Shown here piece after piece: positions 36,624 to 60,745 of a DNA stretch of 64,000 nucleotides. The stretch covers positions 36,381,532 to 36,445,531 of the forward strand of contig NC_091947.1 in NCBI RefSeq assembly GCF_041260155.1, given 5' to 3'. The translations under genes were made by a program, and so were the position numbers. The notes under the pieces are model-generated. The model did no database searches. It worked only from the letters and a program-made list of their open reading frames with translations, and had not been told where the DNA came from. This DNA comes from Ptychodera flava (Eukaryota > Hemichordata > Enteropneusta > Ptychoderidae). Position 1 is the stretch's first letter. Every line of letters starts with the position of its first letter.

Positions 36624-38370
36624 GAAACAACAACTCCATCCTTTCTCAACTTTCTTTTGAATCGTAAAACTGGTTATCAGGTAATATTATATCGTTAGAA
36701 TATCTCTTACAGACTAGTTTTTAGGAAATGTTCGTAATTTTCAGTCCATAGATCAGTGGATGTGATTGTTGGTATCCTCTCAACTCTTGCGTTAAGATTT
36801 TCCAAAAATCGGTGCAAAAAAGGTATACATGAAAAAACAATTTCAGCTACCATAGTAACTCGTTAGAAAAGAACTGGTGTACTTAGCTGAAGACCATGAC
36901 AATAAACGGGTGCCTTTCACTGAAACTCCTTACTTTCGCTTTTTACCCCAAATACATATTTTACTTGAAAATATTTGAAGGAGTATGTTTGTTTACTTTT
37001 AATATGTAAGCTTATATTCAAATTTCTTTTGTACATTTGTAAAAACACTGCATTATATAATTATACATTATACAATAAATACAATAAACACGTGCTTTGC
37101 AGGCTGTGCGAGGGGGTTGGGTGGGTAGGAGAGCCCTGCCCCCTTGAATTGTCCGCACTGCCAATATGTAAAACTACTTAAGCTAGGCTCTAACACCAAC
37201 CCCCCCCCCCCCTCGCAATTTCTTCAGACTACGGCCATACTTTGCATTGATATTGCAAATATATGCATGCCCATTGCTTGAAAAATAGGGCAATAAATGT
37301 AACATTAGGTTAACAAATATCCGTCTGGCAAGGCCATATGCTTTATTTTTTGCTTTCTATACATTCACATTGTTTGTCAAGACTAAGTATTGGCAGATCA
37401 AATCATCATTTATTCCGACTGCCCTAAATATTCCCATTACACATTCTCCAGCAATCGACACGGAGAAGAAATACGCCGCATTGTCTTGCCATCGAAATTA
37501 TTAATTACTATTTCGTCAGTGGATTGTGCATGAGACAAAGCAGCACAAAGCCACACATTTCTAAGAAAACAAAGTTCTAATTCTCACAAAACGACATCGC
37601 AAGCTGACGGAAGAATGAAACGTTGTGCGGTAATTGATCGTGATATCCATCAAGTCAGCAACATTATTTCAAAACACATCGATGAAACCTCTGACAAGCA
37701 ATGTAACCAGTAGACTGTGTAAACTGTACAATGCGATATCTTCTTTCTCGAGCACTCTTTCGCAAACGACCATGTATACGATATCTATGCCACTGTTTCA
37801 TGTGACGACCTTGTTCGTCGATCACATCGCAGTTTCCTACGGGAAAGAAGCCATACTTATGTGTCAGAATTCAGCCAAATATTACAATGATTCGTCACTA
37901 TGAGCTTTCATCACCAAAGGACGAACATATATGTTTCGACCGACATAATTCTGTAAGCAATAGGGTGCACGCTGTTGAATGTCCTTGTATGTAATAATCA
38001 ATAACTCATACAACTGCATAGTCGCCGTCACATCGTGACGAGTACAGGCTATTGCTAAAGAGGTCTCTGTTCCGGTCTTCAATTTTATTTTGTATTACCT
38101 CAGAAGTCTGGACTTTTATTCTTCATCTTTGACCATGAGCAGAAAGTGTTTGAAAAATACATTTCATATAATTTTAGTTAACTTGAGTCATCCTCTCTTT
38201 GTGAGATGACTGTGCAACCATAGGCCCTCGACAAAATCCCGTTTTCTCGACTCTGTGCACAGAGACTTGGCTTGATTTCCCTTACGTTGACCGATAACAT
38301 ATTAATTGACAAAAATCAAACCAATTTGTCTCTGACTGGAAAGGCCATAGACACCAAAGCACTGAGAGCA
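36624..38370. other. Region beyond the last assigned exon of gene 4
   Basis: The phase-2 donor at 38576 needs one more coding exon on the minus strand, probably within this stretch or at 38406-38570, but no candidate with a good acceptor and continuing frame was identified. Contains a C-run at 37201-37212 and otherwise unremarkable AT-rich DNA. Confidence 0.35.
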
Positions 38371-38576: not shown

Positions 38577-38697
38577 CCTTGGCTTGATAGGTCGATAACA
38601 GTTAGAACAACTCCAAAAGCAATGATTGCACCGATGAAGATAGTCAAAGATTCTTCTTCTGTCACTTCACGTCGGGAAGAGTCTTTATGTTTAATAC
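38577..38697 (-). CDS. Gene 4 exon 9: transmembrane helix
   Basis: Acceptor TTTGTCGACAG, donor CAAGG|GTAAGT, phase 1 to 2. Encodes a charged juxtamembrane stretch and then the hydrophobic LTIFIGAIIAFGVVLTVI. Confidence 0.78.
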
Positions 38698-41600
38698 CTG
38701 TCGACAAAATGACCGCAACTGTATAATGGTTGTATCCATTGTTAAGTAGTTTAGTTGCGCGCCGTATCAAATAGACGAATGTCACGCAGTCTGCTTTGTC
38801 AAACATATTACTATGGTGTTCTACAGTCAGCGGTTTCTAAAATCGATTTCACTGAATATTCTACAGTCAGCGGTTCCCACCATCGATTTGACTAAATACT
38901 CTGCAAATAGAAACATCTCACCACTCAAGAAATAACCAACATTACGGTTACATTGCTGTCCTCGTCACCGTCATTGGTGTGATTTCCCTTTTTTCTACTC
39001 ATATGAGTTTCCAAAAGCACTATCATCTCAGCTACTGATTGTTACCATGATAGTGGTAGAAGTTTCGATATTCAGATGATATTTAGCATTATAGTTACAG
39101 TTTCTTTTCCAGGTTACCTGTTGAGTATGCAACTTCTGTTTCTGATTCTGTAGTGCTTCTTTGCGTCGCCATGGGTGGTGTTGACTCTTCCAAACCTACG
39201 GTAGAGTTAAAAAATACAGCCTGCTCCTCCATTGTTTGCCCCGCAGAAACACTTAGTGTAGAATCTGTCAATTCTGGACTGAAATTCTGAGATCGTGGTC
39301 CAGAAGTTGTGTCTGCCTGCATTGGAACGGTTACAAGTTGGCTTGTTGTTGACATCTCTGTGAAGGAAGACGGCAATTTGAATATGTCATCAGATTTGAA
39401 ATGTCTAAAGCCAGAAAAAAGCAAATCAGAGTAGCCAAAAACAGACATTTTGTAACTTGAGAAACTATCCGAGTCGAAGATATACTGCTGTGTACCTGTG
39501 TCGGAAAATGACACAAGTGAAACAAACTAATTAGGGACATAAGCTGTAACTTGTGGCAAGTTTTTCAGTATTCTGCTTCTGTATATCAACTACTGTGTGT
39601 GGCCCTAATCCGTTTGCCATGCTGAAATTTCGAGTATTGTTTTTGTCAACACAGCTTGTATGTGTGTAGTGATCATTGTTTATTGTTTACAAATGAATTC
39701 TAGTCCGGACTTGAATACAATTTTCAACAATAACAATTTAGATTATACTCATATAAGTTGTCTTGGTATGCTAAATACTTCGCATTAAATTACAGTTTAA
39801 TGGTTTAATGCAGAAAGTGTAGGGAAACCACAAAATAAAAGTTTTGAAAAAATAGCCAAAAGATACAACTTATAAAGCTTTAAATTGCTATTCATTTGGA
39901 AAGAACCAGCATCATTGAAAGAACAAACTTCTATACAAGTTGGAAAGTAAGAGTCTCAGAATATAAATGTGTATGTTGTAGCAGTTACGTTGGTGTTGTC
40001 ATGTGCTCTCTGTAAAGACACAATTGTAAAGTTACGGTATCAATCTGGAGGTACAGCCCGAAGGTGTGTGTGTAACTCCATCAACAACTTACCATCGACA
40101 CACTCCGGGAACTGGACATCTGTATAAACGACTTCGTTGGGTACTACGTTGTTTTGAGGAAATGAAATGTCCACGGCGAAGTCAGGTCCTTCAGACGGTG
40201 TAATGACGATTGTAAATGGTAGGAGAGCGTCTATAGAGGGTGTAATCGGATACTCTGAGCTGAAATGACCTCCTGGCATCCTTGTCAACTGCAGTGTCTC
40301 TGAATTAGTTCCGTTTATTACCTCAACGCTTGTCACTGGGTAGCGATTATTATAAACATACAGGCCAAAGTCGAACCGGTCTGTAAACTTAGAAAATTAT
40401 GAAACATATATCTCATTCTCACTACATATTTAACTCTTTGAAGATGTTTTACCAGAATATGTCTATCATAAGGGAGTGTTCAGAATTTACTTCCAGGTGG
40501 GGTCCTAGGGATTTTCTATTTTCCTAGTGATTTTTTCCATGCCCCCCTGGTAAATTATAAATTATATATACATGCATGCTTACACACCGTGACATATAAA
40601 GTCTGACAAGTTTCATTTAAATGACAATATTCCTAGTATGTTTTCTGACCTTTCTACATTGTCTAATTCTATGCAATGGCTAATTTTGTTCAGCCCCTGT
40701 ATAGTCTTCTACCTTATGCCAAGAAAAATCGCTACTTGCATCAAACCTAGAATAATTTATCTCATTGCAAGACAAAACCAGTCATTTTATACTTTCATTC
40801 TGGGGTACCATGCAAATTCTCACTAATACTTAACCTTGCAATTGGTGTAAATAAACATGACTACAGCGTAATTTTCCTCACTGATACATACGATACACAC
40901 AAAGACAGACACAGAATTCAGTTAGAAATTGTCGGAGCACATAATTGGCAAAGTGATATCTATCTTAACTCTATCTTAAGTTACATGGTACACAATTTGC
41001 AGGTAGGACTCTCTAGATATTTATGGAAAGTGAGATGTTACATGCACGAGTCCAGCATACATTGTCATCTGATGATGCTGAATAACTTGCAGACTCACGG
41101 TGAAAATTGGGGAAAGCCAACTAATGTTTTTTTTCTCTTTTTTTTTCAAATTTGGTTGCCATAAAACGAAGTGGCTGCCACTGAAAGCAACCATCCTTAG
41201 AAATATTTCAGAACATTAGTTGAACAGAACACCTTATCCATAACATTAATTCACATAATGTATACGTTATATTTCTGCTAGTTCCATTCACGATTCAATG
41301 TTCGTAAATGCAGGTAACCCTGGATACGCCAAAGTTCACATCTAGTCAACAGTACATTTTTTTCAAAATTGACAGAGCATGCATATTTCACATTTTTACA
41401 AACTTTTAAAAAGACATGATGCACATGTTTTCAGTTAACAGGAAACAAAAAACGTTAATTTTTTTAGGCCTTTTCTGCCAGCCGTCACTGAGAATTCCTT
41501 GATCACACAAATCAGAACGAATGGGATACTAAATTATTAGTATCATTACACAATTGTCTACCCGCAATCTCCTTGATTCATACACACTGAGATCACTTCT

Positions 41601-44600
41601 TGAACTACAGAAAATTTCTTGTTTACACAGGATGCTAAGGTCAATATTTGAACAATCTGGCACCATAGTATTGATGCACTTGATCTTCTGGATGCACATA
41701 CAGAATTATTGGAAAATCAACCCTTTTCCACGGAGGAGCTGGTAAATTTGTAAATTTTTCACCAGACATTTTTGACAGTCAAGCATAATTTCATAGATCA
41801 GGACGTCTAAGCAAATATTTGATGTGGTTTTTTTTTCTTAGCCGCCCCAAAAAGATTGTGCTTTTTTTGTCTGCCCACCTTATTTTTCTTGGGGAAAATG
41901 GGTGCCCCCCTGAAAATCCTCCGGCCCCTGGAAGTAAATTCTGAACACTCCCTAAGCGGCTGGAATTAAAAGAGTATACGTAAACCATAGAGAGCAACAC
42001 GAACTTAGGCTGCGTTCACAAAGAAAGGGGGGCTGCAGGAATTATGGGGGATTCGAACATTTTCAGGGTTGTAGCGGGGGACTTGAAACTTTTGCTCTGC
42101 ATATGGGGGGGGGGGGGCTAAAATTGTTTGGTTCCCTTTTACTTGTTTACATATTCTGATTCCAAAGTTCTGTTGGTAAGTCAATGATAAATGAATAACA
42201 TTTTAATGTCATCTAATTTTTATAATGTTAGTAATAATTAAACAAAATCTAGAACCATTTTGTCGCATTTCATAACTTTTTTGTCGAAGAAATCTAAAAA
42301 TGTATGATTTTCGTAAAAAAAACGAACAAGTAGGACTAGAATCGGAACAGAAGCTATCACTATTGGTACGTTTTCAACATTTCTATATATCAAATACAGT
42401 TTCTTGCTGTCTCCCTTACAGCAAGCTGAAACAAAATATTCAGTTTGTCGGCAAAGCCTGTATATATAAACATCGGGTGATAATTGAATTAGGGTCAAGA
42501 CTGAAAGTCATTTGTCAATGATACAGATGTACGGTACGCATAAAAGGCAGTTCAACATGCTGTAGGAAGTAGAACAGGAACGCAGTTGTATAAACTGACC
42601 AAAAATATTGTCAAAATACGAAGTTAAAACTGCCACTTCCCTGCTACTGTCTACGGGCAGTGTCACTGTCACTACATACCGGCAGTGACAGAGATAACTC
42701 TGACTCTTAAGTAGTTGAAGAAGAGTTTGGGTTGTATGACGCTCATGACAGTGAAACATACTTGTGCGCAAGATCTGACTAGAGAGCAAGACATGAAAGA
42801 CCAGAAGAATTGACAGTTATCAGGGATTTTTGAATTCTTGCAGATGAGAATAATCAAATATTAAAAAAGAAAAGATGAGGTCACCGTGCTTTATTTTGTA
42901 AATTTTCACCTTCTCATCATGCAATAACACCAAAGTAAAACTTTGAACAGAATCATTTGAAAACTCATTTGAATGAAAAAATGAGTGACTAATTTGGCAT
43001 ATGTACACAAAAATTTCAGAGATGAAAACGTTTACTTGATGGAATATTTTAACCTTCCGCCACTGTCAAATTTGTAAAACTTTTATAAGTGGCATCTATT
43101 TCATGTAAGTTTGTACTTTTGAAAAAAAATATTTTTGTAGGGATTTGACATGAGTTGCATTAACTCATGTCGCCTTTTACTGGTAAATTAAAAAAGTCCA
43201 CTGATGCGTTTACGATGAATCAATTTAAAAACTTGCCTTGGGAATATGGCTCTACAAACTGCTAATCACAGGTAGTGTGCAACTTCTGCGAGCAGAACTG
43301 CCAAATACATGTTTATTTTTTCTTTGCGTGCATCCCTAATAGATGTGCGGCTAATAATTGGGGAGAGGAACTTGAAAAATTGTGATCATATAGACCGGGG
43401 ACTTGAACATATTTTTTGGGTTTTGAATGGGGGATCTGAAAAAGTAAGATTTCAATCCCGATTCCTCCAGCCACCCCCCCCCCCCCCCCCGTTATTTGTG
43501 AACGCCTTTGATTTTCTTTGGGAGCCAACATATTCTGCACAGTGCATTCAAAAATACTATAGTAAAGAATAACTAGAAACTATCTCCCGAAATCGCAGCT
43601 GCAACGCTCTTCAAACGAGAACAATTTTCCAAATAGCATGGGATAAATCTGGAACTACGAACTCGACTGAGAAATTCATATGTATTCAGACACATGGGGA
43701 ACTTGGTATCATGATTAAGAATTACTATATGCATGTAACATGTAACATTTTAGAAGTTTTAACGCAGCAAGGACTCTTGACTATTAGATAAAAACACAAA
43801 TGCGTTTCTGAGTAAATTTTGAAGATGTTCATTCGCTTTGGTAAACCAGGCTACTTTCAGTCAAGTAAAAATCCAAGCGGCATTTATAAACAGTTGTGTA
43901 TGTAAATATGCATACCCGTAATCTTATTGTATTTCCAAGGACAGGACAGTCTATCAACTTCCAAGTTGCATCATATTTCGAAATAAGTGCTACAGGAAGA
44001 AGTAAACTCTGACCCCTAAGTTTCTCAAAGGGTGTCAAATCCAATCCAATTTCATCATCACCACAGGATAGGCAGTCACTGACCACTTTCACAAGATTCG
44101 GTATCTGAGTAGGTCCTGTGACCTCCATACAAATACCACACATCTGTCAACAGAAAGCAATATGGCGGAATCAATGTCGAATATTATATCATACTGTTAT
44201 ATTTATGGCGCAGATACGCGATCTGATTGGTCGAGACATGAAAATAACCGTGCTATATTTGCAATATAGCACTGTTGGAACAGGCACGAGCTCTCAGATG
44301 GAGAAAAATTCCCTTTTTGACATTTCACGCCAAAATTTCAATTTAATATTATGATGTAACGGCAATAAACAACATAACGGGAATACCACTCGATTTTGAC
44401 CAGTTCATCCCAAATATGCAATCGTTATCGCTCGTACACATATGTCGTGAACTCGTCAAAATTTCGTGGTATACCGTTGGTGTGTGTGGTTTATTGCCTA
44501 AACATCTGGTGGTAGTGACGGTTGGCATGATAATAGTGTTAATAATGTAAGTGACAATTTACCACCAAAGTCTACTGATCTGACAAGAGAATAATAAATT

Positions 44601-47600
44601 TGTAACAATGATCCTTCCAAAACGCCCGAGGTTTACTTTTCCGGTAATTTTAATACGTTCCTTAGGAAGTACTTCCGTATGCCGTCACTGTGTTCGTGAG
44701 TCACAGAATTTCATCTTATTTGCGTTATGGTACCGATAACGCAACTGGAATACTCATTAGCACTAATGTCAACAACATACCAAGGTATTTCACTTGAAAC
44801 AAAAATCGGGAAAAATTTTCAAGATCATGGCTACTGTGCTTTTAAAGTCTCGATTACCTGGAGCTTTTGTTTTCATTTCCCATTTATTTAATTTTGTTCT
44901 GTTTGTAAGTACATACAGTTTCATGTTCTACTCTCAAGAAATCATGTCTAAAAGTCAACTGTTCAACTTGTCAATACAGCCTTTACAATGCATCGCGTTT
45001 GCCAGGCCAATACTTTATATTACAACAAGATGAAATTGCACCGTCATCCTAAAGACTTGGGCTTATTTACATAGCTACACTGTTTCCCAAAGGAAACTAC
45101 TTCGCTGCTTATCAAAAATCAATAGGATCGGAATTAATTTGATATCATTAGATGGTAAAGTCATGTCGGTTTAATCTGCGAATGTAAGCTCACCATCTTT
45201 TCTTTTTAAGTTATACCCTTGTTTTCATAAGTAATTTGTAATATTGCAACATTCAGCTATAGGGCACCTAACACTTTTGAGAAATTTGGAAAATATGAAG
45301 ATCTGATTATCCCAAATTAATTCCAATCGTGTTAACCAATAATGAAAACTGGGATCAGTAAATCATATCACTGAAATCAATTGACTCAATATCATGGCAC
45401 AGATGAGACACAGAAATACAATAACCCAGATCACAGCATTAAACCACCTATTGACGGACTCAGCAAAGATGACACCAATTAGAATTATTCAATGACAGAA
45501 TTGATAGATAGTTTTGCACCAACCTCTGACAGTCCATTGGTCAGCCAGCTGTCACTTAAGCGTGCAAACATGAAACCTTCTTCTTGCAATTTCCACAGCG
45601 GTAGCCCACAGATAGGGGAATACGTACCAGGTATGAACATAACTGGAGTATACATTGCTCTACCTGTATAGGTCTCACTCAGGTCACATCGGTCAGAAAG
45701 TAAATTCGGATTTTCTGATAATGTACAGGAGAAATTTTAAATATCATGATAGCAATGAAAATGTTATTTTGTTTAAAAAGTAGACAAAATTCACCTTAAC
45801 GCAAGAAATTCCGGCACAAATCCCACCGAATATGAGACGCAACTGTACAATGAGGCATGACAGCAGACAACAAACCACCATTGTCCCTATTGCTTTATTG
45901 CCTTTATTTGATTATGTCCCTCGACACTTCATAATTCAGGAATTCCCATCGATAAACAAGGAATAAAAAATAGCGTCAATGATATGACACTGTTCTCCTC
46001 AGTACATTTAGCGGTAGGGATGCAAGGAGAGAGGTTTGGGGAATGTTGCTGAGAAAGATGCAAAGAAAAGGTTAAAATGTGAAACTGTAATAAAACCTAT
46101 TGTTTTTTTAGCAGTGAGCGTCCAGCTTGGTAAACATGCCATCTTGTACATGAAGGCAAAAAACATAATTTTCACATGTCCACCAAACTTGGAATTTGCA
46201 TAGATCAACATAGATCATCCAAATTGATTTCTCTGCAAGATTTTGTATGTTCCTTGCTACAAAATTCTGACCCAATTGAATTATAACAGGAAAACAAGCA
46301 CGCATGATTGGACAGTGTGTACTGTGTATTGCATGCACTACATCTGCCGTGATGATGGATTGCCAGACGACCACACTGCATCAAAGAACTGTAGTTTAAA
46401 ACGAAAATATAATTCTAAACAAACTTTCTTCGTGTCATTGATAGCCTTGATTTTCTTTGGATATTGAATGGACACATTTATTAAAGACGTCACTTTAGCT
46501 TGTCATTGATGGTGAAATGAGTTTTTGCAGAAACTTGATCGGTTCAGCCAAGTACACATGCTTACTCATAACAGCTAGCTGGAATGCGATGATCACAACA
46601 TTGTTTTGTGATATTCCAATACAAAATTAAAATAATTTTATTAATATGTCGCATTGACTATAAAGTTGCAAATGTTTCCTTGGGTGTTGAAACATGTTAG
46701 CATAGTGTGTTACAAATCAACACACCAAACAACAATGTTCATGTAAGAACAACCTGCTTGATTTCCATGGACTTTCTGGTCCGCCCATCACACTGGCATG
46801 TCTGTTTCCCCTCTAGCTTCCGAAAATTCTTAGTAAAGTTACAAATTCAGTCTCAGAAATTTTGAGTAAATTTCAAAATTGATCGTATTAATTAAATTGT
46901 CAGTTATCAACAAATTCCTTTTGTATGCCAATACAGCTTATCTCAGAACCGGACATACTTATATACACACAAGATTTGGCAAAGTAGTAAAGTTACAAAT
47001 TCAGTCTCAAAAGTTTGGAGTAAATTTCAAAATTGATTGTATTAATTAAATTGTCAGTTATTAACAAATTCCTTTTGTATGCCAATACAGCTCATCTCAG
47101 AACCGGACATACTTATATACACACAAGATTTGGCAACACCCTGACAATTAAATAATCTTCAACAGCACTGATTTACATTTACAAATTATTCTATGTGAAG
47201 TAATTCTTCAATTGCAGATACTATGACAGAGGAGTTCAGCACTGCCAAGATATATAGCACACTGAATTTTGAACCAGAGTTATGACAATGACTGAACTGT
47301 GTCACAATAAGTTTCTTTTATTAAATCAATCGTTTCATTTTTTCTACTACTACTACTACTACTACTACTAGTAAGATTGTAGATCGTTTCATTTTTTCTA
47401 AGATTGTAGATATTAGTAACTTTAAACCAGGAAAAAAATACCAATAAGTGGAAAGGATCAAAATAAATCAAATTATTTATTTCTTTACATATTACAAAAC
47501 CAGAAAGTAACACATAATTCTAATTTAAGTGATTTAAGGCTAGTTTTACAAGCTTACTTGTAAATGTTTGATGATGGAAAGAAACAAAAAACCACGAATA

Positions 47601-50600
47601 AACCTCAAAAGCAACAAAATTCCAAGCATAACATTACACGATGGTTCAGAATGTTCATTTACAATGTTTACTCAAAATGTAGTTTGAAAACGATAGTATT
47701 TTGACTGCTGTACTGCGGCTACTACTAAAAGTCTGTTGAAAAAGAGTACTAAATATCGTTGTTTTTCATGTCAACAAGTGATTGAATCAGAAACATGTCT
47801 CATGAAACAGTAAAACAACAACTGATAAATAAGTAACTTTTCTCAAGAGTAACTTGAAACGCGCGCCTCGCCTGAAAGAAAATTTCATCCCGTTTCACAG
47901 AAACCACAGTCCCTCTATAGAGGGACTGTGCAGAAACTGACTGCGTATTCGAGCGTCACAGCAATGAACGGTCGGGGAATCCCCGCGAAAAATCACTCAC
48001 ACGTATGTACTCGTCCAAAACATTGATTGTTCACTTTTTAGCTGCATGATTCAGCATGCCAAAAATATTTTTATTTTGCAGATAAATAATTGAATTTCTT
48101 ACTATTTTATTTCGTTTGTTGATGAAAAGTCATTTTAATATTTTTAGATGCTCTAAAAATTTCAAAACCCGCTAAAAAGCGACTATTTGGCCAAAATTCA
48201 AACGAAAAACAGGAAAACCAAGCTCATATCATGGGCTATTTTTGTATGAATACTCTCAGTCTCTATACGCTTACGCTTAACGATGCGACTCAGGTTCAAA
48301 GGTCAATTTTAGCAATTTTTTTTTTTATTTCAAATTTCGAACCACTGACACGTGGTCTTTCTTTTGGGGAAAGGTGTTGGTCACATCATACTGGGAAATT
48401 CCTGAAATATTACTAAAATGGCAAACTATCAGCTACACCGCGTGCCATTATTTCCCTTTTGTCTTAACGGTCGCGGATTACCGACCACGATATCTTTGAT
48501 AAACACGCAGAGATTATGTATAGGCTTGGCGGTATAGTGCGCATGCGCTAGCTTCAACGTTATGCTCAGCGTTTTGAACTCCGCATGTATCGGTACGGCA
48601 AACACGTCGAGCAGACCAAAGCCGGCGCTCGCGCTCCGTACCGTCGAAAAAGCAAGCGAGGTCCACAAAAGCGGACCTGAAAAAGACGGCAACGTGCGCA
48701 AAGGTCGATTTAAATGTAAAACAGTCCGACTTTGGCTCATACTCCCTGCAATAACGATCAAGAATGCAGTGAAGAGTCAGATTTGGCCGAGGACGCAGAC
48801 GATAACGGAGACGTGCTCAGTTCAACAACTATGAAAGTATTTGACACGCTGCTTTTCGAACATATTAGGCTATGCTGATTACATACCCGAGTCCAAAAAT
48901 TAGCCTGAGCGAGATGAAACTTCTGTTAGTTGCGATAATTTTATCATTCTCGCTGTACATGCTTGGTGTTTGTATCGTGTTCTTTTATATTTTTAAACTC
49001 AAAGTTTCATCTTTCTATCGTGCAATTTCTATCGTCTTTTCGTGTCTGCTGAGAAACCTTGAGCAACGCCGTACCCGACATCACGCGACATTTATGTCAA
49101 GGAGTTTCCAAAGCGAGTGCAGGAGTTCATACACACATAATGCAGATTCACAAGAGCAAGTTCACCGATCTGCTAATTTTTCGAAACGAAATGCAAATCA
49201 TGCCTTTTCTTTCTTTAAATATAACCCAAAAATTAAATTACGTCCAACGTAAATTGCGAGGGTTCACATGATTCTTGTGTGCGTGTTGTCTAAACTTATC
49301 AATTACCCGCAGACTCCACAGCTGCTAGCTGGACCTCAACACTGAAGGTAAAACAAACCCGGCTCAACTTCTAGAAGTGCTGAAACTAGCAATTTTGCTA
49401 TATGAGGTCAGTCATCAAAAGTTTGACTAAAAGTAAAAATCTCCGAAATAATTATGTGTGCGCTGGTATTGCGCAAGTCGAGTGACTCCACTGTAGACTA
49501 GTCCGATACTCTGTCTCTCGGAACACGCTGTCGATGACAGCCTGCACTGTTCTACGCTACGGCGTGATTATTATTAGTTTGATAAAATCGGTACAAGAAC
49601 ACATATAAATAAAGTTTTAAAAAATTACACGAGTCAATCTCTCAAGGGCAACAAGTTTGCAGTGCGGTGCAAAAGCTAAGAAAATACAACAAACATTTTA
49701 TGTTGTCAAGAGTTACATGTGTTCGTCTCATCTTGAGGTAGGAAAACTACCAAGTGACGTCCCGTTCGCACAGTGTCGACGCTAACATGAACTTGACAAT
49801 CATTTTTCACAAAGAACATGCATAAATTGCCGATCGCAAGACAGGAAGTAGACAACTTGAGTCAAGAACAAGTGAATGCCCGACGCGATCGCGCGACGAC
49901 AGCACACAGGTCTCGATCAGATAGACTTTTTTACACAAGTTTCGACGTCTTCGTCTGACTGTGAACTCTGGTAACCAGATTGTAACCGTTGAGACAACAG
50001 TATACAGTTAATATGCTAGTTAAACGTTCCAAAAATGGATTAAATCGCTAAGTACCCCTCTGTGTTTGTTGTGTAAATACCACCCACTGCTGGCACTAAG
50101 CATTTGCCAGTTTTCACTCGATCTGCAATCCTAAACATATTCAAAATTCCCAAAACTGACTCTAAATATTTCAACTTAGTCCTGGTGTAAGAAAATTCGC
50201 AGAAAATGGTGCGCGACTCGGACTTCTTGGCCACAATGTGTGACGCATAGGTCGTTTTCACAAATCGTTGATTTCTCAGTTCCGTTTTTGGCAGTGCGTA
50301 CATTATTCAAATAAGTATAAGTCGGCGGCGCCTGGACAGATTAGCCTGATTTTTCACCTGTGGACAGTGAATAAATATATCTGAAAGAACGTGTCTCAGA
50401 TTTCCGATAAAGGGCCTGGAAGTGAAGATATCCTGACAAACGTGAACAAAGGCCGATAATTTATGCAAAAAACGTCAAGTTGACACTTTGAAGGCGCATT
50501 GTGCGAAAACAAAAAGCGAATTTCAAAAATCCGGACACGATTTTTTGCCCAGTATACCCAGCCGTCGATTGCCGCAAACAGATCACCAAGGGCGATTGGA

Positions 50601-53600
50601 GATTTGTACTTACACTTTTTTGAGTAAAAAACTAAAAAACACGTGTTTTTGAGTAAAACAGCCGTATGCGCACTGTTTTTGAAAACTAACAAATTTTCTG
50701 AACTCTTCGGTGACCGAGCAGATAAGAAAAGTACCACATGTCGGGTGTGTGACACGTCTTCTGTGTGAAAATAAGGATTGAAAATAAGTGACAATGAACC
50801 TGAGTCGCTACCTTAATGCTCTCGCCGTTGCATGATTTTTGCATAAAAATTTTTCACTCATTTTCGTTGGTATGACTTTGAAACTCCAGGAAGCGATTGA
50901 GAAGAAAGGGTTACCTTGAATTATTGAGGTTTTTGCTGATAATTTGCCAAATTAAATGAGAAAAAACACTACGCAAATTTCCACACGCTTACACACTGAG
51001 TGTTTCAGAGGCCGGCCTTTCATGTTCGTGTGTTGCTGCGAATCCGTAGCCTCTGCCACTCGGGTAGCTTGGTCCCCACTCCAAGCAGAACACGTCAAGG
51101 AGTGGCAGGGCTCGTTTTCGCAGCAAGTTCGTGTGGTACAACATGTGATCATGGAGGTAGTAGGAGACTGAGGTTTCTTGCACGGTCGCGCCCACAGTTG
51201 CGAGTGGAGTGATACGTACCGGCCGCCGCGTACTATGCATATAATAATGCATAGTACGCGGCGGCCGGTACGTATCACTCCACTCGCAACTGTGGTCGCG
51301 CCGATGAAATGGGAAGCTGAAATTTTCGCTCGTAATTTTACAAACGAAATCGTAAATCCACTCAAAACTTCGTATTTTTTTGACACGTTTGAAACCCATG
51401 AGGAACGTAATTCATTCTCCCCTGCACTGTAAAAAGGAGATCGAAACGACATGCATGTCACTTTCTCAGAACCAAACGCACGCAAGATGTCCGTCAACAT
51501 CCACCAATCTCGTAATTTACACTGACAGAACAAAAACAATTTGATCGAGCATGGACGTTCTAACGTAAATACATCATTGTCTATCGCATTTTCATGTAAG
51601 CCAATACACTCACACGTACGCTCACAAGTTCAATTATAATGTCAATTCAACACGATCTGGTATTTTCGCTGATTGTGAGTGTGCAGCGTGAATGGTATGC
51701 TATAGTCGTTAGATAACACTGATCACGTGGTGTGACAAAATAGTTTTACGGAAGTTATTGACGGAAATGACGTCAATTTTGCCTCTCCAAACTCTATAAG
51801 CTTCCTCAGTTACGTAACTTCGTCGCCAAAAAACTAGTGGGATCCTTCTTCCCGCCTGCCTATTCAAAATGCCAATCGAACAGAAAAATTTAAAAATTTC
51901 TACCCAAACCGACCGTCAAGAAACAGCTGAGGAACACGTTTTGCGAGAATAACTTCGTTACTGTCTCTGAAAGAAGCCGACATTTTGTGGTTTCGGAAAA
52001 AAATGAAATTGTGTAAAACACTTACTGCAAAAGCAGAATTTAGGTAAATCTTTTAAGAAAGTTGTCAATTCATGCATATTTGGTAATCGGTTGATAAATG
52101 CCTACAAAATCGATTTTGTGAAAATGCTTCTTCGATACAAAATAGAAAAGCAGCTGAAATCTAGTTCAAAGCTAACGAATGAATTTAATAAAACTATTGA
52201 GTCTACGTGATTTTTAAATTAAATTAAGTCGGTATTATCTGTCGTGAAAAACTTTTCATAAAAGAGAAAAAGCATTTGATGTAGTCGGGAGCTCGATTAT
52301 TTAGGTCCAAAAGCCATTGCCTTTAATTATGACGGCATTTTATTCAAATGCGACATTGAAGCAAAATTTTTGTCTGATTAAGGCTATAAGAAAAATTCTT
52401 CAAGCTAAAATACATGTAAATAATCCAATCTAACACAATATTGTACGAGAGAGGTACGTATTATTTATCCGTAACAATGCACTTACCCATGTAGCTTGTA
52501 CTCACAAGTTGCAACTTTTAGTTATTAATTCTGAAATCCCAGTGGTCAATATAATTGTTTCAAGTAAATTATGTTAATTCGTGTTCATGAGTTGCAAAAT
52601 ATCCAATCGCAAACTATTCGTCCGTGCACAACTGTAAGTCAAATTACTTTCAGAGGCAGTTCCGTTAGTTTATTACAAAGGGTCAAGCTATCACATGTTA
52701 AAGTTTTGCGATGTGAGCCAATCCAGAAAATGATACAAACATGTGCTACTTTTATATTTATAGATTTATTTTATGAATCCTTAACGCTCTTTCGTATACT
52801 TATTTGACAGACAAAGGAAATATTGACGGCCCATCAGTTTAGAGCTACAGATATTGCATATGTAACTCATTGTGAATAAATGCAGAGATTAGTTTCCGGC
52901 TTGTTATGCTTATAGTTATCTTTCAGCGTTATGTTGGTTAAATAAAACAATTCCTGAAGACAGGGTTGATCATCATTTCCCCCTCAGCAAAGCAATTAGG
53001 TTGTCAAATGGTTCCATAGAAACAAAGCAATTAGGTTGTCAAATGGTTCCATAGAAACAAAGGACGTGCAGTGTATGAACTCAGCAAAGCAGTTAGGTTG
53101 TCAAATGGTTCCATAGAAACAAAGGACGTGCAGTGTACGAACTAGGCTAAGAGTCAGGGATTGAGAAATGCAGTATTTGTTAAGGCTACCTGCTCACAAC
53201 AGTAGACGGCAGTTCAATAGAAGATTTGAGCTTCATGATATATCTGGCAGCCAAGTATAGCTTGTATAGCAAGTATAGCGGAAGTATACCTTTTCCCTAT
53301 TGTACAGCAGTGGTAATCTTGTTACGCCCTATTGTACAGCAGTGGTAATCTTGTTACGCATTGCCAGCTGCAATGTTTTTTAAAAATTCCCGGCAAATGT
53401 TAAAATGATTGGCCCCAAACTTGTCTTCATGAGGCAATTTAAATAATGGAGCTTTACCTATACACGAAGGTATCTGAGCTGACCATCCGGATGCAGAACA
53501 GGTGATAACGCTTTCTCCTTCCAACCGAAAGCCAACTTTACATGCATATTCCACCATTTCATCTGGCGGGGGTTCACGTCTAATTATAATCCCGTTCTCT

Positions 53601-53674
53601 GGCGTATCCGGCTGAGGGCAGGTCAAGCCTGTCGTGATCAACAGCATCGTCATCGTATTACTGACAATCGAATA

Positions 53675-53731
<57 letters not shown>

Positions 53732-56700
53732 GAGGGGGAGGACGAGTGTGGTAAAAAGAGGAATGCATACGTACAGCAGAGACATACAGAGCGTGTATTT
53801 AGCAGCAATACTACAATTATGTATTTATTGCCTTCCAAATTGAAAAGATTGAATATTACATGCCCAGATTTAATATGACATGTGACATGTTACTTTCCGA
53901 ATCGTATAGATTTAAGATTACCTGCAGGGGATTTACACAGAAACTTATTAGCTTGTCCACAGGGAGCAGGTTGCCAATGACCCGTGAAATTCACAAGGAC
54001 GCAGTTGCCAAGGCTCGTGTCTGACGCGTCATTTGAATCTTGCCAAGCTGTAAAGGGCAACGGAGATGTGTCCACATACATGAAATCAACTTCCGCTGTA
54101 TATGGCCATGGTCGTCTTATCCCAATCCATGCGTTGCCAGACCATTCTACATAACACAAGTTAACAATGAATATTGTTGTCAAGTCAATATTGCCAGAGA
54201 GTAAAAGTGAGAAATGCAAAGCCAAGGCAAAAAAGCCGAGTGGTTCCGGTTACCCGACTAACTTTAAATTTTACCCGCCGACCCTGAACTTTTTAAATCC
54301 GTTCGTAAACGTGAAAGGAAAAATATACAAAAAAAACATTCGAAAATAAGGCGAAATACAAATCCGTCAAAACTTCGTGGATCTGTAACGTTATTTATTG
54401 TTGCACAGCGATACTCAGTTTATCACAAGAGGACTTTCGAACAACAATAAAGAAAATAATTAAGAAAAGAAAAGAATCCCAACCTACCTATGATATAATT
54501 TGAAAAGCATGAATTGGAAACATACTATTTTTGTGGCCTAAATCCATTTACATTTGGATTGCCGGTCAAAGGAAAATATATGATGAACGCAATAGTATTA
54601 CTAACATTTAATCCCGCTCTCAATTTCAGAGGTATTGAGAAATACATCCACGATAACTCAGTCAGTGAAAGTGTCACGATCGATAGGTTTTGCGTTGTTT
54701 AAAAATGAAATCAAATACATCACTTTGAAGTATACCAAATCAATTTAGTAAGTCAATTTGGGCTCGAGCAACTAATACAAATCTCATCTAAGGTTTGAGC
54801 TAAATGAAGAAAAAACATCACGACCCCGTAAGACGTCGAATAAGACCTATGACTCCATAATATGATCACTTGTTGGCTACACAGTACAAAGGGACAGTAA
54901 GTTAAACTGGGTTTAGGTGGTTCCCGAACGGTACTCTGCAGCTCGGAGTAAAGAAATAAAATAAAGGATGAACAACCTTATCTGTGTGACCTTTCAACTA
55001 CAAAGAGCATGCCAAACGACTGTAACGAAAGGCAGTATTTGATAGATCTCCCGTTTCACATGTGTTGCTATGCAGAAAATGTTTACCAAGTGTGAGATTC
55101 AGTAATCCATGGATGATAAAAGAAATAATGTTGTATAACGAATGCATTGGGAAATACACATATTTTTATCTGTGGCCCTTAAAATTGACTTAGCATTTAG
55201 ATAGACCAGTTCGACTTACCATAGTATGCCATGATGTCGGAGATTAAAGTGACCGATGATTGGTAATTTTTGAAATTCGAAGCCAGATAAGCAGCATGTG
55301 TTCTACAGACAAGCTGTGACTCGTTGAAACCCATTGGTTGATCAAATAACTTCCAGCAACCATCTGTACCGTAGTCTAACCAGTCATTGTAGAGGCATGC
55401 ACAGCTGGACGGACGAGGAGCTAGGGTAGAAATTACTTTAGGTTTACTATGATGATGATAAATTGAAAGTAATTAACGACTGTTACATAATTTTTAATCA
55501 TCAGTATCGATTATCATAATCACCACCACCATCATCATCGTCATTGTAAATAGCTATTACTTTATCATCATAACTTCTTGGTTGCCATGGTCATCAAAAC
55601 CATGGATGTCATCTAGAGACCCTCGCCAAAGACGAAAAATTGACCCTTTGAAGTGACGACACAAATTAAGCTAGTGCAGTCTTTGTTGTTGCTTTTGTTA
55701 TCAATATGATGATGTACTCAATAACACCGCTGCGACTGGAGAATACCGCAAATACGCGCTTCGTCAAAAGTCAAAAGTCATATCTAAGTTTATATTTTTT
55801 ATTCTTTTTACATAAACTTTGGTAGCCTGCAATTTTTTGCGGTACAATTCCTTCATGTAAAGCAATCAATTTTAATGTAAATGCTGCATGGTCTGTCCGA
55901 TGAGCCAGCGCTCACTAAGGAATGCTACAAGTGCGCTTTCAACCGGGAAAGTAAATTTGCATATCTGCATTTTGGTGACGTCGGGAAAAGTGTATATTTC
56001 ACAGGGAATATTTCATGTTACTCGTAAAGCTGCAACAACACAACTTGGCAAAATTTATCAGAAATTTCAAATCCGTTGAGGACAGTAAAATACCGATAAT
56101 AAAAAATTTCGGACAGTTATGACACGCACAAATGACACCATACTCATTTACGTTCAACAATCCTTTAAAATGTACCAGCGATATACAGTGTATTTCTATT
56201 TTTCTTCTACGCCCTAGTTTCACATCATTTATTGTTATTTGTGTATAACCATGTACACGCCGATTGTTCACAACTGTTGACCACATTCTCAACAAAATTC
56301 ATAACTGCCATGATACGTATATGACTAAGCATGAAAAGTAACTACTGTCTATGAACTAAGGTACAAATGAGATGCGTACGGTGTCGATATTATGCCAGCC
56401 ACGTTGACGAATTCTGATTCTCCGTTTTCCTTGCACAGCAAATGCTCCATTCACAATGTACCTGAGTTAAGTAGGAATGCCAATGCAAATACTCTATATT
56501 TTCTGTTGATGTTACGTATGTAGAATCGTTTCTAAGGCAACACCCCGTCCCCACAGAGATACATGTCGCATATTTTACACGGTTAATACTGTATTGTAAT
56601 TCGATTAACCTCCATTTGTGTATGTTTCCAACAGATATGAGATGTAGTCAATTTCCAGATCCAAAGTAAATGTTTTCTATCGAAATTGATTTCTAAAAGC

Positions 56701-59700
56701 TCATCATTGTCATAATGCTTTCTTACGTTCTAATACTATCATTTCATCGTCGAACAATTTTATTTTGTGAATCGTTCTCCGTCTTCTTTCTCTCTTCCGT
56801 ATATCTGGATAGATCGGTTAAAGCCTAGTAGCCGTAACTTACTTTGTTCTGTTCGTAAAATAAGTTTCCTTGGTATACTCGCATAATCATATCGAAATAC
56901 ATAGTACCCTACTTGTCAATACAGTCCGTATATCTGTGTGTAATCACAGACAAATAGAAAGACAGACTAGCAACGCGGCATGCCTTTTGTTCCATGGTCG
57001 TCTCGGTAGACTGTGGCCATTTCATATTAAAATGAGCTTCACAGGTGTTAGATTTTTGGAGACTTTGTTCGTGGTTGATAATTGCACGAGATATGCGAAA
57101 AGTACGACGAGATATCGAAATAGCATCGTGCTGCCAGTCGCGTAGCAACCATACTTAGGGACGATTCAGAATTTACTTCCAGGGGAGGGTGGAGGATTTT
57201 CTATTTTCTCGGTGATTTTTTTCCATGGCCCCCCCTAGTAAATTATAGAAAAAATCTATGGCCCCCCCCTCATCTTTCCTGTTTTTTTTCCATGCCCCCC
57301 CCCCCTAATATATACATGCATGCTTATACATTAGGCCTATAGACATATCCAGTCTAACAAGTTGCAGGAACTGTAGTGGACATTTAATCGATAATATAAC
57401 AAATCATTTCAGGGTTATATGACTATAAAAAGAATGATTTGCAGGGACTGCAAGTGGCACACTTTTGGAAAGGGTAGCAATAAACATATCTGGTTGTAAA
57501 TTTCTGAAGAAAAGTTAATTACTAAATATGAATACTTTTTTCGTTATGTCTCACTGATACATATGATGCACACAAAGACAAGCAAAGATGTCAGTTAGAA
57601 ATGGTGAACAGAAAATCAGAGGAGCAGATAATTGGCAAAGTGATATATATCTTGAAGTTTTATGGTACATCATTTGCAGATATCCAGATATTTCTGGAAA
57701 GTGAGATGTACATGCACACGTTCAGCATACATTTTTATTTGATGATGCTGAATATTTGCAGACTCGCGGTGAAAGTTTTAAACATTAGGAATTAAATTGG
57801 TGAAAGCCAACTTGTTTTTAATTTTCTCTTTTTTTCTAATTTGGTTGTCATAAAACCAAGTAGCTGCCACTGAAGCAACAATGCTGAGGAATATTTTAGA
57901 ACATTTCTTGAACAAAACACCTTATCCAAAACATGAATTCACATGTTTTCTGCTCATTCCATTCACAATCCAATGTTCATATAAAATGCAGATAACCCTG
58001 TGTAAGTCAAAATTCACATTTTGTCAGCAGTATTTTTCGAAATTGACAGAGCATTCATATTTCAAATTTTTTAACAAACTTTAATTTTAAAATAGTCATG
58101 ATGCGCATGTTTTCAGATGACACGAAACAATACATGTTAATTTGTTTTTTTGCCTTTTCTGCCAGCCGCCACTGTGAAATCTTTGATTATACATATCAGA
58201 ATGAATGGGACACAAGTATTAGCATCAATACACAATGTGTAAGCCTATCCACATTTCTCCTAGCCTCATACACACTGAGATCACTTCTTGGACTACAGCA
58301 AATTTCTTGTGTACACAATATTTCAACAATCCGACACCATAGCATTGGTGCAGTGCCACATGATCTTCTGGATGCACATACAGGATTATTGGAAAATCAA
58401 CCCTTTTGTAAATTTTTCAACCGTATATTTTTGACAGTAATACATAATATTTTTATTTTCAACATTAAAAAACTATTCGCTGAAAGCACCTTGAAGATGA
58501 GACAGCCATAAATTTATTTTCAAAAAGTTTATAGTAGATGTAAGCACTGTAAAAAGTTATGTAGAACATTAAAAATTTAGAAAGGGTAAAATTGATGAGA
58601 ATGAAAAGAGAAAAAAGGAGCAGAAAAGAAGAGTAGCAGTAGCAGTAGTTTACTCAAAGGATGAAGTGGGTGTATATTTGGGGTAAAAAACCTCAATTTT
58701 TGTATTAATGATAAAAATTAATTTAAGTCGAAAACTAGACAGTATTCAAAATGCCTCTTATTAAAATGTAAGAGCTTTATTGCCAAACAAACCAATTGAT
58801 AGTTGTTGTGTTATATAGCATTTAAAAACATAATTTGAAATTTCAGAAAATTTGACCCAGCCGGAGTGGAAATTTTGAAATTGGGAGGCAAAAGAAGCCA
58901 AGAAATCGGGGTGATTTGCATACATTTGCATAAATTAACACTTCTTTATCATGCAACTTTCAACTGCTTTACAAGCTACAAGGTAAACCCAACCTTAAAA
59001 AGACATTTGCTGTAATTTTTAGCATTTGTTCAATGTTCATCTCTGTGTATCAGCATTTGTTTGTTATTCTATCACTACATAGAACACCCAATGCTGTATT
59101 TAGCAACATACCAGTGTGAACATAAATGACCATTGTTATTGTTGATAAATGAATTCTAGTCTGGACTTGATCTGAGATCTTTTTTCAACAAAAACAACCC
59201 TGACTGTTCACTGTATGGTTTGTATTGACATGCCAAATACTGGACATTTCATGACGCTTCAGGGAGGAGAACAAGATACTGTAGTAGATGCATAAAACAA
59301 ACCACTGTGAATATTACCGAATTTGGCAGCTAAAGGAGTTTAACTAAACATGTTGAGTTTATCTGTCACCCAGGTAGCGTCTATGGTTCTCTTTGTAGAG
59401 ATCAGAAATTCCGGGCAAATATTGAATTGATGTTTTTTTTCCTTGGCCCCCCCTAAAAGATTGTGGTATTTTTGTCTGGCCCCCCTAAATTTTCTTGGGA
59501 AAAATGGGTGGCCCCCCTGAAAATCCTCCACCCCCCCTGGAAGTAAATTCTGAATCGTCCCTTACTTTTTGAGCTCTCAGGGCAGAAACACTGCTTCACG
59601 CAAATCAAAACATAACACGCCAGAAGTTTCATAAACACGTCCTTCCATGACCAACTTTTAAAAGACGGTATGACTGACCGTAAACCATTGAGTAAAACCA

Positions 59701-60745
59701 GACAGTATCGATAAAAGACTTTCAAATTTGGTTCAAACACACTTATTATATATTCATAAAATGTGAGAGGAATTTTTAAAATGGTAAAACTCACTTTCCC
59801 GAAGCTCAAAACTTTCCCGTTTTCGGCCGCACACCAATTCCGCTCGGCACCACACGACAACAACAACACAAACTTTGCCGAACATACTTTCGCTTAAAAA
59901 TTGGCGAAAATCCGAAAATTACCGAAGGATGCATGGTCGGCACTCTTCGGAAAAGAGAGGCGAGAGCAACCTGAGGCGAGGCGAAAATGGAGGGCTTACT
60001 TAAGCGCTTCACATCTTAAACAACACCCGTTGCTAGTCTGTCTTTCTATTTGTCTGTGGTGTAATGTCTGTCACTTTTGTCGAGTGCGGACTGAAATTCC
60101 TTTTTCAGCGATAATGTTTAAACATTGTACACGATGTGTGATGTTTGCAAAGATTACACATTGAGAAGTACACGTAAGCGACGAAGATGTACATGTCTTT
60201 TAGAACACAAAGTGACGGAAAAATCATCAAAACTTAACACTTTCGTCCCTTTAAATTTGCTGGCTTCTCATCCGAATCATTTTGTACATGATCCCACTGG
60301 TGGTTTTGACACCACTGACGATAGGCCTTACAACAATATCACAAATTCAATTTTAAGAAAACGTCTACACTTTACTTATGTGACGGCAATTTTGCAGTTG
60401 AATGTCGGAAATTTAAACAACAGACTCTTTACGATGCAGTAGCCAAGAAACACACCTGAAAGTTCGTTTATGAATCAGAACGTGAACAAATTATTTTTGG
60501 TATAGTGGAATAGTTTTTTTTTTTCTTATCATCCCAGATATGGTAGATTAACGAAAAGCATCTGATCTTTTTTGAAGAAGAAATCTCACTGGATTAGCAT
60601 AAACAATATTTTCACTATCAGGAAATAGAAGTTCGACAATATATCGAAGTTTCTTTTTTTGATCAGTAAAGCTATAAAAGAACTTACCAAATGTACTGAA
60701 AATTGTGCCGATAATTAACACCTTATACCAGAGATACGATGCCAT
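38577..60745 (-). CDS. Membrane-anchored C-type lectin / sushi / expansin-like protein, nine exons (3' end open)
   Basis: Exons in order: 60745-60688, 55420-55220, 54146-53922, 53628-53458, 45714-45524, 44143-43916, 40387-40093, 39495-39118, 38697-38577. All nine join in phase (1,1,1,1,0,0,1,1,2), about 622 codons so far. Domains in order: signal peptide; C-type lectin domain split over two exons; sushi/CCP domain; two-exon double-psi beta-barrel of expansin type with paired cysteines and the key aspartate in LDLTPFEKL; expansin C-terminal CBM63-like domain ending VQFPEC; Ser/Thr-rich stalk; transmembrane helix. Expansins loosen polysaccharide networks without hydrolysis. Here the domain would sit outside the cell next to a lectin, suggesting recognition or modification of microbial, algal or tunic-like glycans. 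The lectin domain has lost the usual EPN/WND calcium motifs. The terminal exon with the cytoplasmic tail was not found. Introns carry many transposons. Confidence 0.82.
38820..38905. repeat. Imperfect tandem duplication of about 43 bp
   Basis: TCTACAGTCAGCGGTT...ATCGATTT...ACT occurs twice in succession. Confidence 0.75.
39118..39495 (-). CDS. Gene 4 exon 8: Ser/Thr-rich stalk
   Basis: Acceptor TTTTCCGACACAG, donor ACAG|GTAACC, phase 1 to 1. 126 codons rich in Ser, Thr, Pro and Glu with no cysteine, typical of an O-glycosylated stalk. Confidence 0.75.
39533..39879. mobile_element. Diverged copy of the TTAA-flanked MITE
   Basis: Ends AGGGACATAAGCTGTAACTT and AAGATACAACTTATAAAGCT, with an intact TTAA at the right flank and a mutated one at the left. 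Shares the TTCTAGTCCGGAC block with 36275-36619. It lies only 37 bp upstream of the stalk exon acceptor. Confidence 0.7.
40093..40387 (-). CDS. Gene 4 exon 7: expansin C-terminal (CBM63-like) domain
   Basis: Acceptor TTTTCTAAG is chosen because it gives phase 0; the alternative TTTACAG six bases later breaks the frame. Donor GATG|GTAAGT. Encodes YVYNNRYPVTSVEV ... GGHF ... VYTDVQFPEC, the order of strands seen in bacterial and plant expansin C-terminal domains. Confidence 0.85.
40472..41952. mobile_element. PIF/Harbinger-like non-autonomous element
   Basis: Perfect inverse ends GGGAGTGTTCAGAATTTACT with TAA at 40469-40471 and 41953-41955. No transposase. Shares interior blocks with 57158-59561. 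Confidence 0.88.
42008..43509. mobile_element. Probable Harbinger-like element, imperfect ends
   Basis: Left end GGCTGCGTTCACAAAG after TTA; right end TTTGTGAACGCCTTT is nearly its inverse, and a C-run lies inside it. The right target duplication is not intact. Related to 27835-29507 by its GCGTTCACAAA end. Confidence 0.6.
43916..44143 (-). CDS. Gene 4 exon 6: expansin-like double-psi beta-barrel core
   Basis: Acceptor GTTGACAG, donor ACGG|GTATGC, phase 0 to 0. Encodes CGICMEVTG, V-S-D-C-L-S-CG, the conserved-aspartate motif LDLTPFEKL and W-K-L-I-DCPV-x-GN, all hallmarks of expansin/EG45-type barrels. Confidence 0.9.
44190..44505 (+). mobile_element. Multi-hairpin element, uninterrupted copy
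   Basis: Contains the palindrome GTGCTATATTTGCAATATAGC, the GAGCTCTCAG block, then a larger hairpin whose arms read ATACCACTCGATTTTGACC and its inverse, bounded by GGCAATAAAC and GTTTATTGCC. Homologous to 6470-7140 and, inverted, to 62985-63300. Confidence 0.75.
45524..45714 (-). CDS. Gene 4 exon 5: start of the expansin-like barrel
   Basis: Acceptor ACATTATCAG, donor GAG|GTTGGT (weak), phase 1 to 0. Encodes TYTGRA near the start and ICGLPLW ... FARLSDSWLTNGLSE, which lines up with the opening strands of expansin barrels before the CG-x-C-x-E-V-T-G motif. Confidence 0.75.
46832..47139. repeat. 154-bp tandem duplication
   Basis: Two adjacent copies, each starting AGTAAAGTTACAAATTCAG, with few differences; recent. 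Confidence 0.92.
47345..47371. repeat. (CTA)n microsatellite
   Basis: Nine trinucleotide units. Confidence 0.9.
47898..47937. repeat. Perfect 26-bp palindrome with exact 7-bp direct repeats
   Basis: CAGAAAC at 47898-47904 and 47931-47937 flanks a perfect palindrome whose half-site is CACAGTCCCTCTA. Confidence 0.9.
48430..48840. promoter_or_regulatory. CpG-rich stretch with an NRF1-type site
   Basis: CpG dinucleotides are markedly denser than in the surrounding AT-rich intron. TGCGCATGCGC at 48538-48548 is the palindromic NRF1 consensus. It may be an internal promoter within the 45715-53457 intron of gene 4. No supported first exon was found; the frames at 48562-48834 and 48872-49252 have no recognisable domain. 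Confidence 0.45.
51184..51302. repeat. Perfect inverted repeat, 48-bp arms, 6-base spacer, direct-repeat flanks
   Basis: 51193-51240 is inversely repeated without mismatch at 51247-51294. GGTCGCGCC occurs on both sides (51184-51192 and 51294-51302). GC-rich, unlike its surroundings. Confidence 0.95.
51724..51817. promoter_or_regulatory. Cluster of E-box, CRE and D-box palindromes
   Basis: CACGTG (51724-51729), TGACGTCA (51768-51775) and TTACGTAA (51810-51817) lie within 94 bp. These are perfect consensus sites for bHLH (CLOCK/BMAL, MYC/USF), CREB/ATF and PAR-bZIP factors. Confidence 0.6.
51818..52984. other. Intron of gene 4, nothing recognised
   Basis: AT-rich; no supported gene or repeat. 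Confidence 0.35.
52985..53147. repeat. Irregular tandem repeat, three units
   Basis: GGTTGTCAAATGGTTCCATA with flanking sequence occurs three times; two units also share GGACGTGCAGTGTA. Confidence 0.9.
53295..53358. repeat. 32-bp tandem duplication
   Basis: Two copies of a unit beginning CCCTATTGTACAGCAG, just downstream (minus strand) of the sushi exon. Confidence 0.9.
53458..53628 (-). CDS. Gene 4 exon 4: sushi/CCP domain
   Basis: Acceptor CACGACAG, donor TATAG|GTAAAG, phase 1 to 1. Encodes one CCP module with four cysteines in the right spacing: TCPQPDTPENG ... YACKVGFRL-x-G ... TCSASGW ... PSCI. Confidence 0.92.
53676..53730. repeat. (TG)n(AG)n microsatellite
   Basis: About nine TG units followed by about seventeen AG units, 47 bp before the sushi-exon acceptor on the minus strand, where it reads as a (CT)n(CA)n tract. 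Confidence 0.95.
53922..54146 (-). CDS. Gene 4 exon 3: C-type lectin domain, C-terminal half
   Basis: Acceptor TTATGTAG, donor TGCAG|GTAATC, phase 1 to 1. Encodes the signature WIGI and C-x-L-V ... HWQPAPC ... FLC. The calcium-ligand motifs EPN and WND are replaced by DSN and WQP. Confidence 0.9.
55220..55420 (-). CDS. Gene 4 exon 2: C-type lectin domain, N-terminal half
   Basis: Acceptor TTTCTACCCTAG, donor CTATG|GTAAGT, phase 1 to 1. Encodes C-x-C-LYNDWLDYG ... CWKLFDQPMGF-x-E-x-Q-x-x-C-x-x-x-x-AYLAS, the first alpha/beta part of a CTLD. Confidence 0.88.
56356..56461 (-). CDS. Possible terminal exon, unassigned
   Basis: A good acceptor (TTCCTACTTAACTCAG) opens a frame of about 34 codons ending at TAG 56356-56358. 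It reads NGAFAVQGKRRIRIRQRGWH and then NIDTVRISF, strand-like and faintly reminiscent of a carbohydrate-binding-module end. It does not fit the exon chain of gene 4 because of its stop. Could be an alternative end or chance. Confidence 0.25.
57158..59561. mobile_element. PIF/Harbinger-like non-autonomous element (2.4 kb) with a nested MITE
   Basis: Ends GGGACGATTCAGAATTTACT in perfect inverse orientation; TTA at 57155-57157 and 59562-59564. The interior is homologous to 40472-41952, plus extra sequence including the MITE at 58999-59339. Confidence 0.88.
58999..59339. mobile_element. TTAA-flanked MITE nested in the Harbinger-like element
   Basis: TTAA at 58995-58998 and 59340-59343. Ends AAAGACATTTGCTGTAAT and TTTGGCAGCTAAAGGAGT. 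Contains the TTCTAGTCTGGAC block of the family. Confidence 0.7.
59565..60687. other. Intron 1 of gene 4, no feature assigned
   Basis: Contains a moderately CpG-rich patch around 59810-60000. Frames here (for example 60125-60442) have no recognisable domain. Confidence 0.35.
60688..60745 (-). CDS. Gene 4 exon 1: signal peptide
   Basis: ATG at 60743-60745 starts MASYLWYKVLIIGTIFSTF, a short hydrophobic leader. The donor TTTG|GTAAGT gives phase 1, exactly what the C-type lectin exon at 55420 needs. Linking over the 5.3-kb intron is inference. Confidence 0.6.

Follow-up and report, generated by a model that had tools for sequence, protein, structure and literature searches.

Expansins are best known as looseners of the plant cell wall, and the joining of a C-type lectin-like domain (CTLD) to a complement control protein (CCP, or sushi) module is familiar from animal surface proteins such as the selectins. 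Here we analyse a 64-kb stretch of Ptychodera flava DNA (64,000 nucleotides, hereafter the window), on the minus strand of which exons for both kinds of module lie in series. With the microbial expansins of the EXLX1 type (7wvr, 9ms5, 9ms4 and 2bh0; NF041144) the P. flava module shares the two-domain order, three motifs and the end of domain 2, whereas it differs from them in its replaced binding-face residues, its membrane anchor and its animal host, and in that the N-terminal part of its barrel is not recognised. The likeness to selectins consists of a lectin-like domain followed by a CCP, and of a membrane anchor as well if the P. flava exons form one gene; unlike selectins, the P. flava protein would have one CCP, no Pfam EGF match and, instead, an expansin-like module.

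Among animals, expansin-type proteins are described from plant-feeding nematodes and from a whitefly (PMC11800479, PMC6006793). The nematode expansin-like effectors and the EG45-type protein of the whitefly are likewise expansin-related proteins of animals; they are described as secreted effectors or single-barrel proteins of plant-feeding animals (PMC11800479, PMC6006793), whereas the P. flava module is followed by a stalk and a membrane helix and belongs to a marine deuterostome. No expansin-type protein from a hemichordate or other deuterostome was found in the open-licence literature, and the one paper in it that has both 'expansin' and 'hemichordate' speaks of nematodes only. RNA-seq and Iso-seq reads exist for P. 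flava (PMC11175523). Should transcripts bear the module out, an expansin would have been recruited to the surface of an animal cell and its binding face remodelled, and its ligand would become a testable question.

Exon structure and reading frame

The initial annotation described nine exons whose phases match without exception. All nine are present on the minus strand with AG/GT borders, and the claimed frame is the top-scoring one by codon use for exons 2-9 (8/8), the scoring having been trained on the kelch gene of the same window; the score of exon 1 is approximately zero, and for exon 10 a different frame does better. Exon 10 (37785-37836, minus strand, as are all the exons) is a terminal exon absent from the initial annotation, which adds a short cytoplasmic tail and a stop codon and brings the whole product to 593 aa. 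Exon 1 (60688-60745, phase 0 to 1) encodes a signal peptide on the basis of hydropathy, exons 2 (55220-55420) and 3 (53922-54146) the N-side and C-side halves of the CTLD and exon 4 (53458-53628) the sushi/CCP module, each of these three running from phase 1 to 1. Exons 5 (45524-45714, phase 1 to 0), 6 (43916-44143, phase 0 to 0) and 7 (40093-40387, phase 0 to 1) make up the expansin-like module, followed by a Ser/Thr-rich stalk in exon 8 (39118-39357, phase 1 to 1) and a transmembrane helix in exon 9 (38577-38697, phase 1 to 2), the latter borne out by a mean hydropathy of 2.57 across 19 residues. Taken as units, lectin, sushi, expansin (exons 5-7) and stalk all run from phase 1 to phase 1, and both internal introns of the expansin unit are in phase 0.

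Independent annotation covers the downstream part of this structure. A 199-aa NCBI protein, 'uncharacterized protein [Ptychodera flava]', is identical at 199/199 positions to exons 7-10 (residues 395-593) and comprises expansin domain 2, the stalk of exon 8, the membrane helix of exon 9 and exon 10. Its start is the first Met of exon 7, and it is without exons 1-6; as this start falls inside domain 2, the model is incomplete and does not place the true start. The expansin-like module is very probably joined to the membrane helix. The introns and the BTB-kelch gene in the window are compatible with animal DNA, and contamination is made less likely by a contig of 39 Mb, the size of a chromosome.

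The junction of exons 6 and 7 is where the matching of phases depends on the choice of acceptor. Exon 6 ends in phase 0, and the frame is kept solely when exon 7 begins at 40387, after an AAG acceptor that scores -3.7, against -0.4 for a CAG 7 nt further on (40380), on a home-made splice scale. Use of the CAG would shift expansin domain 2 out of frame, such that the claim of phases matching without exception stands with the AAG and falls with the better-scoring CAG. If the usual transcript were spliced at the CAG, the locus would be a damaged or non-functional allele, a reading with which the two acceptor scores agree and from which the start of the 199-aa protein at the first Met of exon 7 would be expected, exon 6 then joining out of frame. 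We consider this improbable, however, as in-frame coding bias is kept in exons 5-9, domain matches lie on either side of the junction, and the AAG version scores 87.9 against the bacterial profile described below, compared with 81.1 without its two extra residues.

Lectin and sushi domains

The CTLD and CCP of the initial annotation are both confirmed by Pfam matches above the family cut-offs, Lectin_C at 1.2e-7 (32.9 bits, cut-off 22.6) and Sushi, with four Cys, at 1.6e-8 (35.3 bits, cut-off 20.7). C-type lectins that bind sugar through calcium usually do so with EPN or QPD and WND motifs. Aligned to 6pwr, the P. flava domain has DAS and WQP at the EPN and WND places, and by this comparison the usual calcium-sugar motifs are not found in it.

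Homology of the module to expansins

Exons 6 and 7 are, as judged by sequence comparison, almost certainly homologous to expansins. A phmmer search of the PDB with exons 5-7 returned four sequences in total at E <= 10, namely EXLX1 7wvr (1.9e-6), 9ms5 (6.7e-4), 9ms4 (0.022) and 2bh0 (0.15). The NCBIfam family expansin_EXLX1 (NF041144) matches exons 6-7 at 5.8e-9 over positions 39-193 of its 194, with a score of 35.5 bits that is under the family cut-off of 100. Pfam gives no expansin match, only the lectin and sushi domains, and by the wording of the initial annotation, which named the lack of a profile match to expansins as a refutation, this result taken singly counts against it; we regard the Pfam null as outweighed, since the other profile and sequence searches do find expansin.

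A bacterial profile was built from the 52 of 80 loci with a usable reading frame, these being relatives of one Streptomyces protein retrieved with patterns that include some of the tested residues. Against this profile the spliced module scores 38.1 bits, the maximum among 5000 shuffles being 5.6. When the profile was used in a blind six-frame scan, 2 of 2199 segments reached E <= 10, and these are exons 6 (2.1e-5) and 7 (0.05), in order and on one strand. By hhalign the match is 97.9% over query 8-237, with none of 100 shuffles reaching the real score for exon 6 and likewise none of 100 for exon 7. The profile-shuffle, six-frame and hhalign tests share a common bacterial alignment and hence are not independent of one another.

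Domain 2, which is CBM63-like, is present in exon 7 according to the scan, the shuffles and the NCBIfam match that runs to 193/194, and the expansin C-terminal domain of the initial annotation is upheld. A structural model of this domain is all-beta except for two short helical turns (pLDDT 79.4), and is not independent of the profile work, as its input alignment (26 of 28 non-redundant rows, L058 and L072 being left out) contained 26 bacterial D2 domains. Domain 1 is matched through its core, exon 6, and the fold-defining motifs CG...VxGP, CxxC and NxRxPV are kept. The two-exon double-psi barrel that had been proposed has sequence support in exon 6 and none in exon 5, for which 11/100 shuffles reach the real hhalign score and which in pairwise comparison with the corresponding piece of 7wvr shows no expansin signal, 2000/2000 shuffles reaching the real score. 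Nor does an N-terminal expansin profile find a convincing segment in the window (best E 0.99), although this N-terminal part is well conserved among the bacteria, at 0.67 bits per column. Exon 5 is assigned to the start of the barrel by its position only.

Residues of the binding face

In the Bacillus expansin, D71, Y73 and D82 are essential, and K119, W125, W126 and Y157 bind polysaccharide, according to PMC11040781. By the numbering of an alignment with 2bh0, the four binding residues are in P. flava R in place of K119, F in place of W125, D in place of W126 and G in place of Y157; K119 and W126 are kept in 52/52 of the bacterial relatives, and D stands at both D71 and D82 in 52/52, in each case partly by selection of the set. 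Within the profile, D71 and D82 were located by means of the Bacillus motif. At the Y73 position there is C both in the P. flava module and in all 52 bacteria. For the two aspartates the outcome varies with the partner: versus either the Cys-type profile or 7wvr, S stands at the D71 position and G at the D82 position, with D two residues on, whereas versus 9ms4 both positions hold D.

Since the residues known to grip cellulose are changed, binding is more likely than wall loosening, and from these substitutions we favour with some confidence a binding role for the module. The initial annotation had instead proposed an active loosening protein at the cell surface, which would disrupt a glycan network. 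The presence of both expansin domains and the aspartates aligned at D71 and D82 against 9ms4 are in keeping with such an activity, but S and G take their places against the Cys-type profile and 7wvr, and the R, F, D and G found against 2bh0, together with a lectin domain that is without the usual calcium-sugar motifs, go against disruption, leaving active loosening quite improbable.

Extent of the gene

Whether the lectin and sushi domains are part of the same protein as the expansin-like module turns on intron 4. All exons are on the same strand, their phases match and no closing helix exon was found in this intron, which together argue for one gene; we hold the chances that they are one gene to be even. 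The earlier claim of an expansin-related module in an animal protein anchored to the membrane is supported, whereas a tether behind lectin and sushi is only a possibility, given the signs of a boundary in intron 4.

One such sign is a CpG-rich block at 48000-52000, a possible promoter region and hence a possible gene boundary, in which CpG observed/expected is 1.27 as against 0.63 and 0.76 in its flanks. Two adjacent genes would then be present, a lectin-sushi gene of exons 1-4 and a membrane-anchored expansin-like gene of exons 5-10 that starts separately, within the block or downstream of it, perhaps at the ATG at 45881. The stretch upstream of exon 1 is likewise high in CpG (1.10 and 1.26), as would suit this arrangement, but so are stretches elsewhere, for example at 24-26 kb. 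A potential start for the second gene is also at hand, as one of the three phase-1 first-exon candidates in intron 4 (45827-45881, minus strand) is strongly hydrophobic, with 112 nt between it and exon 5; on the entire minus strand, only 4/41 first-exon candidates have a hydropathy of at least 2.2, the real exon 1 among them. Signal peptides are usually cleaved after small residues, and by this rule the candidate is without a good cleavage site; its use would also require a donor of middling score (2.0) and an intron of 112 nt. At the other end, a scan of intron 4 did not yield a 3' end for exons 1-4. Among 33 terminal candidates, none encodes a membrane helix with which a lectin-sushi gene might end (best hydropathy 1.57, compared with 2.57 for the real helix), and by the home-made splice scores no other internal or terminal exon in the intron is good, in a scan that is blind to weak acceptors such as those of exons 2 and 7, which fall below its threshold.

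The absence of exons 1-6 from the 199-aa NCBI protein also fits two genes, but that model, being incomplete, says nothing on the true start. It is the sole database match in the protein searches by 5-letter words, and no protein that joins exons 1-6 to anything was found among database proteins of 317-1008 or 197-626 aa sharing exact 5-letter words. On this evidence two adjacent genes are a possible, though less probable, arrangement.

Proposed model

We propose that exons 1-10 encode a single 593-aa surface protein in which lectin, sushi and a modified expansin serve binding and not loosening, a reading to which, taken as a whole, we give somewhat less than an even chance. Such a protein would be a type I membrane protein with, in order, a signal peptide, a C-type lectin-like domain, a sushi module, the expansin-like module of exons 5-7, a stalk, a membrane helix and a cytoplasmic tail of about 20 residues, in which no motif was recognised. 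The expansin-like module would have kept its fold motifs and lost most of its cellulose-gripping face, and may serve for binding or as a spacer, displaying on the cell a divergent surface to which glycan or protein would bind. Possible targets are the microbes or algae that a deposit-feeding acorn worm would meet. Within this model we infer that exon 5 completes the barrel, that lectin and sushi are joined to the module, what its ligand is and that its role is to bind. As the expansin module is flanked by phase 1 on both sides, like the lectin and sushi exons, exon shuffling offers an origin for the arrangement, and we put forward tentatively that in a deuterostome a foreign two-domain expansin was inserted by way of phase-1 introns between lectin-sushi and a mucin-like stalk and helix, and became the binding module of a new type of receptor.

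Other features of the window

Within the CpG-rich block there is a near-perfect hairpin (51178-51309) with 63-nt arms that are 92% complementary, and at its edge a 26-bp perfect palindrome (47905-47930), of which no second half-site copy bounds the block. A transposon was considered as the source of the block and rejected, as neither matching ends nor copies occur in the window. Searches for viral relatives gave 24 pattern matches with 0 confirmed, and searches for RNA families and tRNAs found none. An uninterrupted BTB-BACK-kelch ORF of 603 codons lies at 17387-19198 on the minus strand, and comparison of it with plasmids gave no match. An ORF at 3024-3323 on the plus strand has a Pfam match to HECW_N that is below the cut-off (8.7e-4, 19.8 of 26.7 bits). 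A 19-bp unit is repeated in tandem, with 27.6 copies at 428-951 and 5.6 copies at 2231-2337. Finally, related repeats are found in intron 6 (c. 40460-41960) and intron 1 (c. 57150-59560) with similar, inverted ends, CTTAGGGA...TTTACTTCCAGGGG, arranged as a DNA transposon would leave them.
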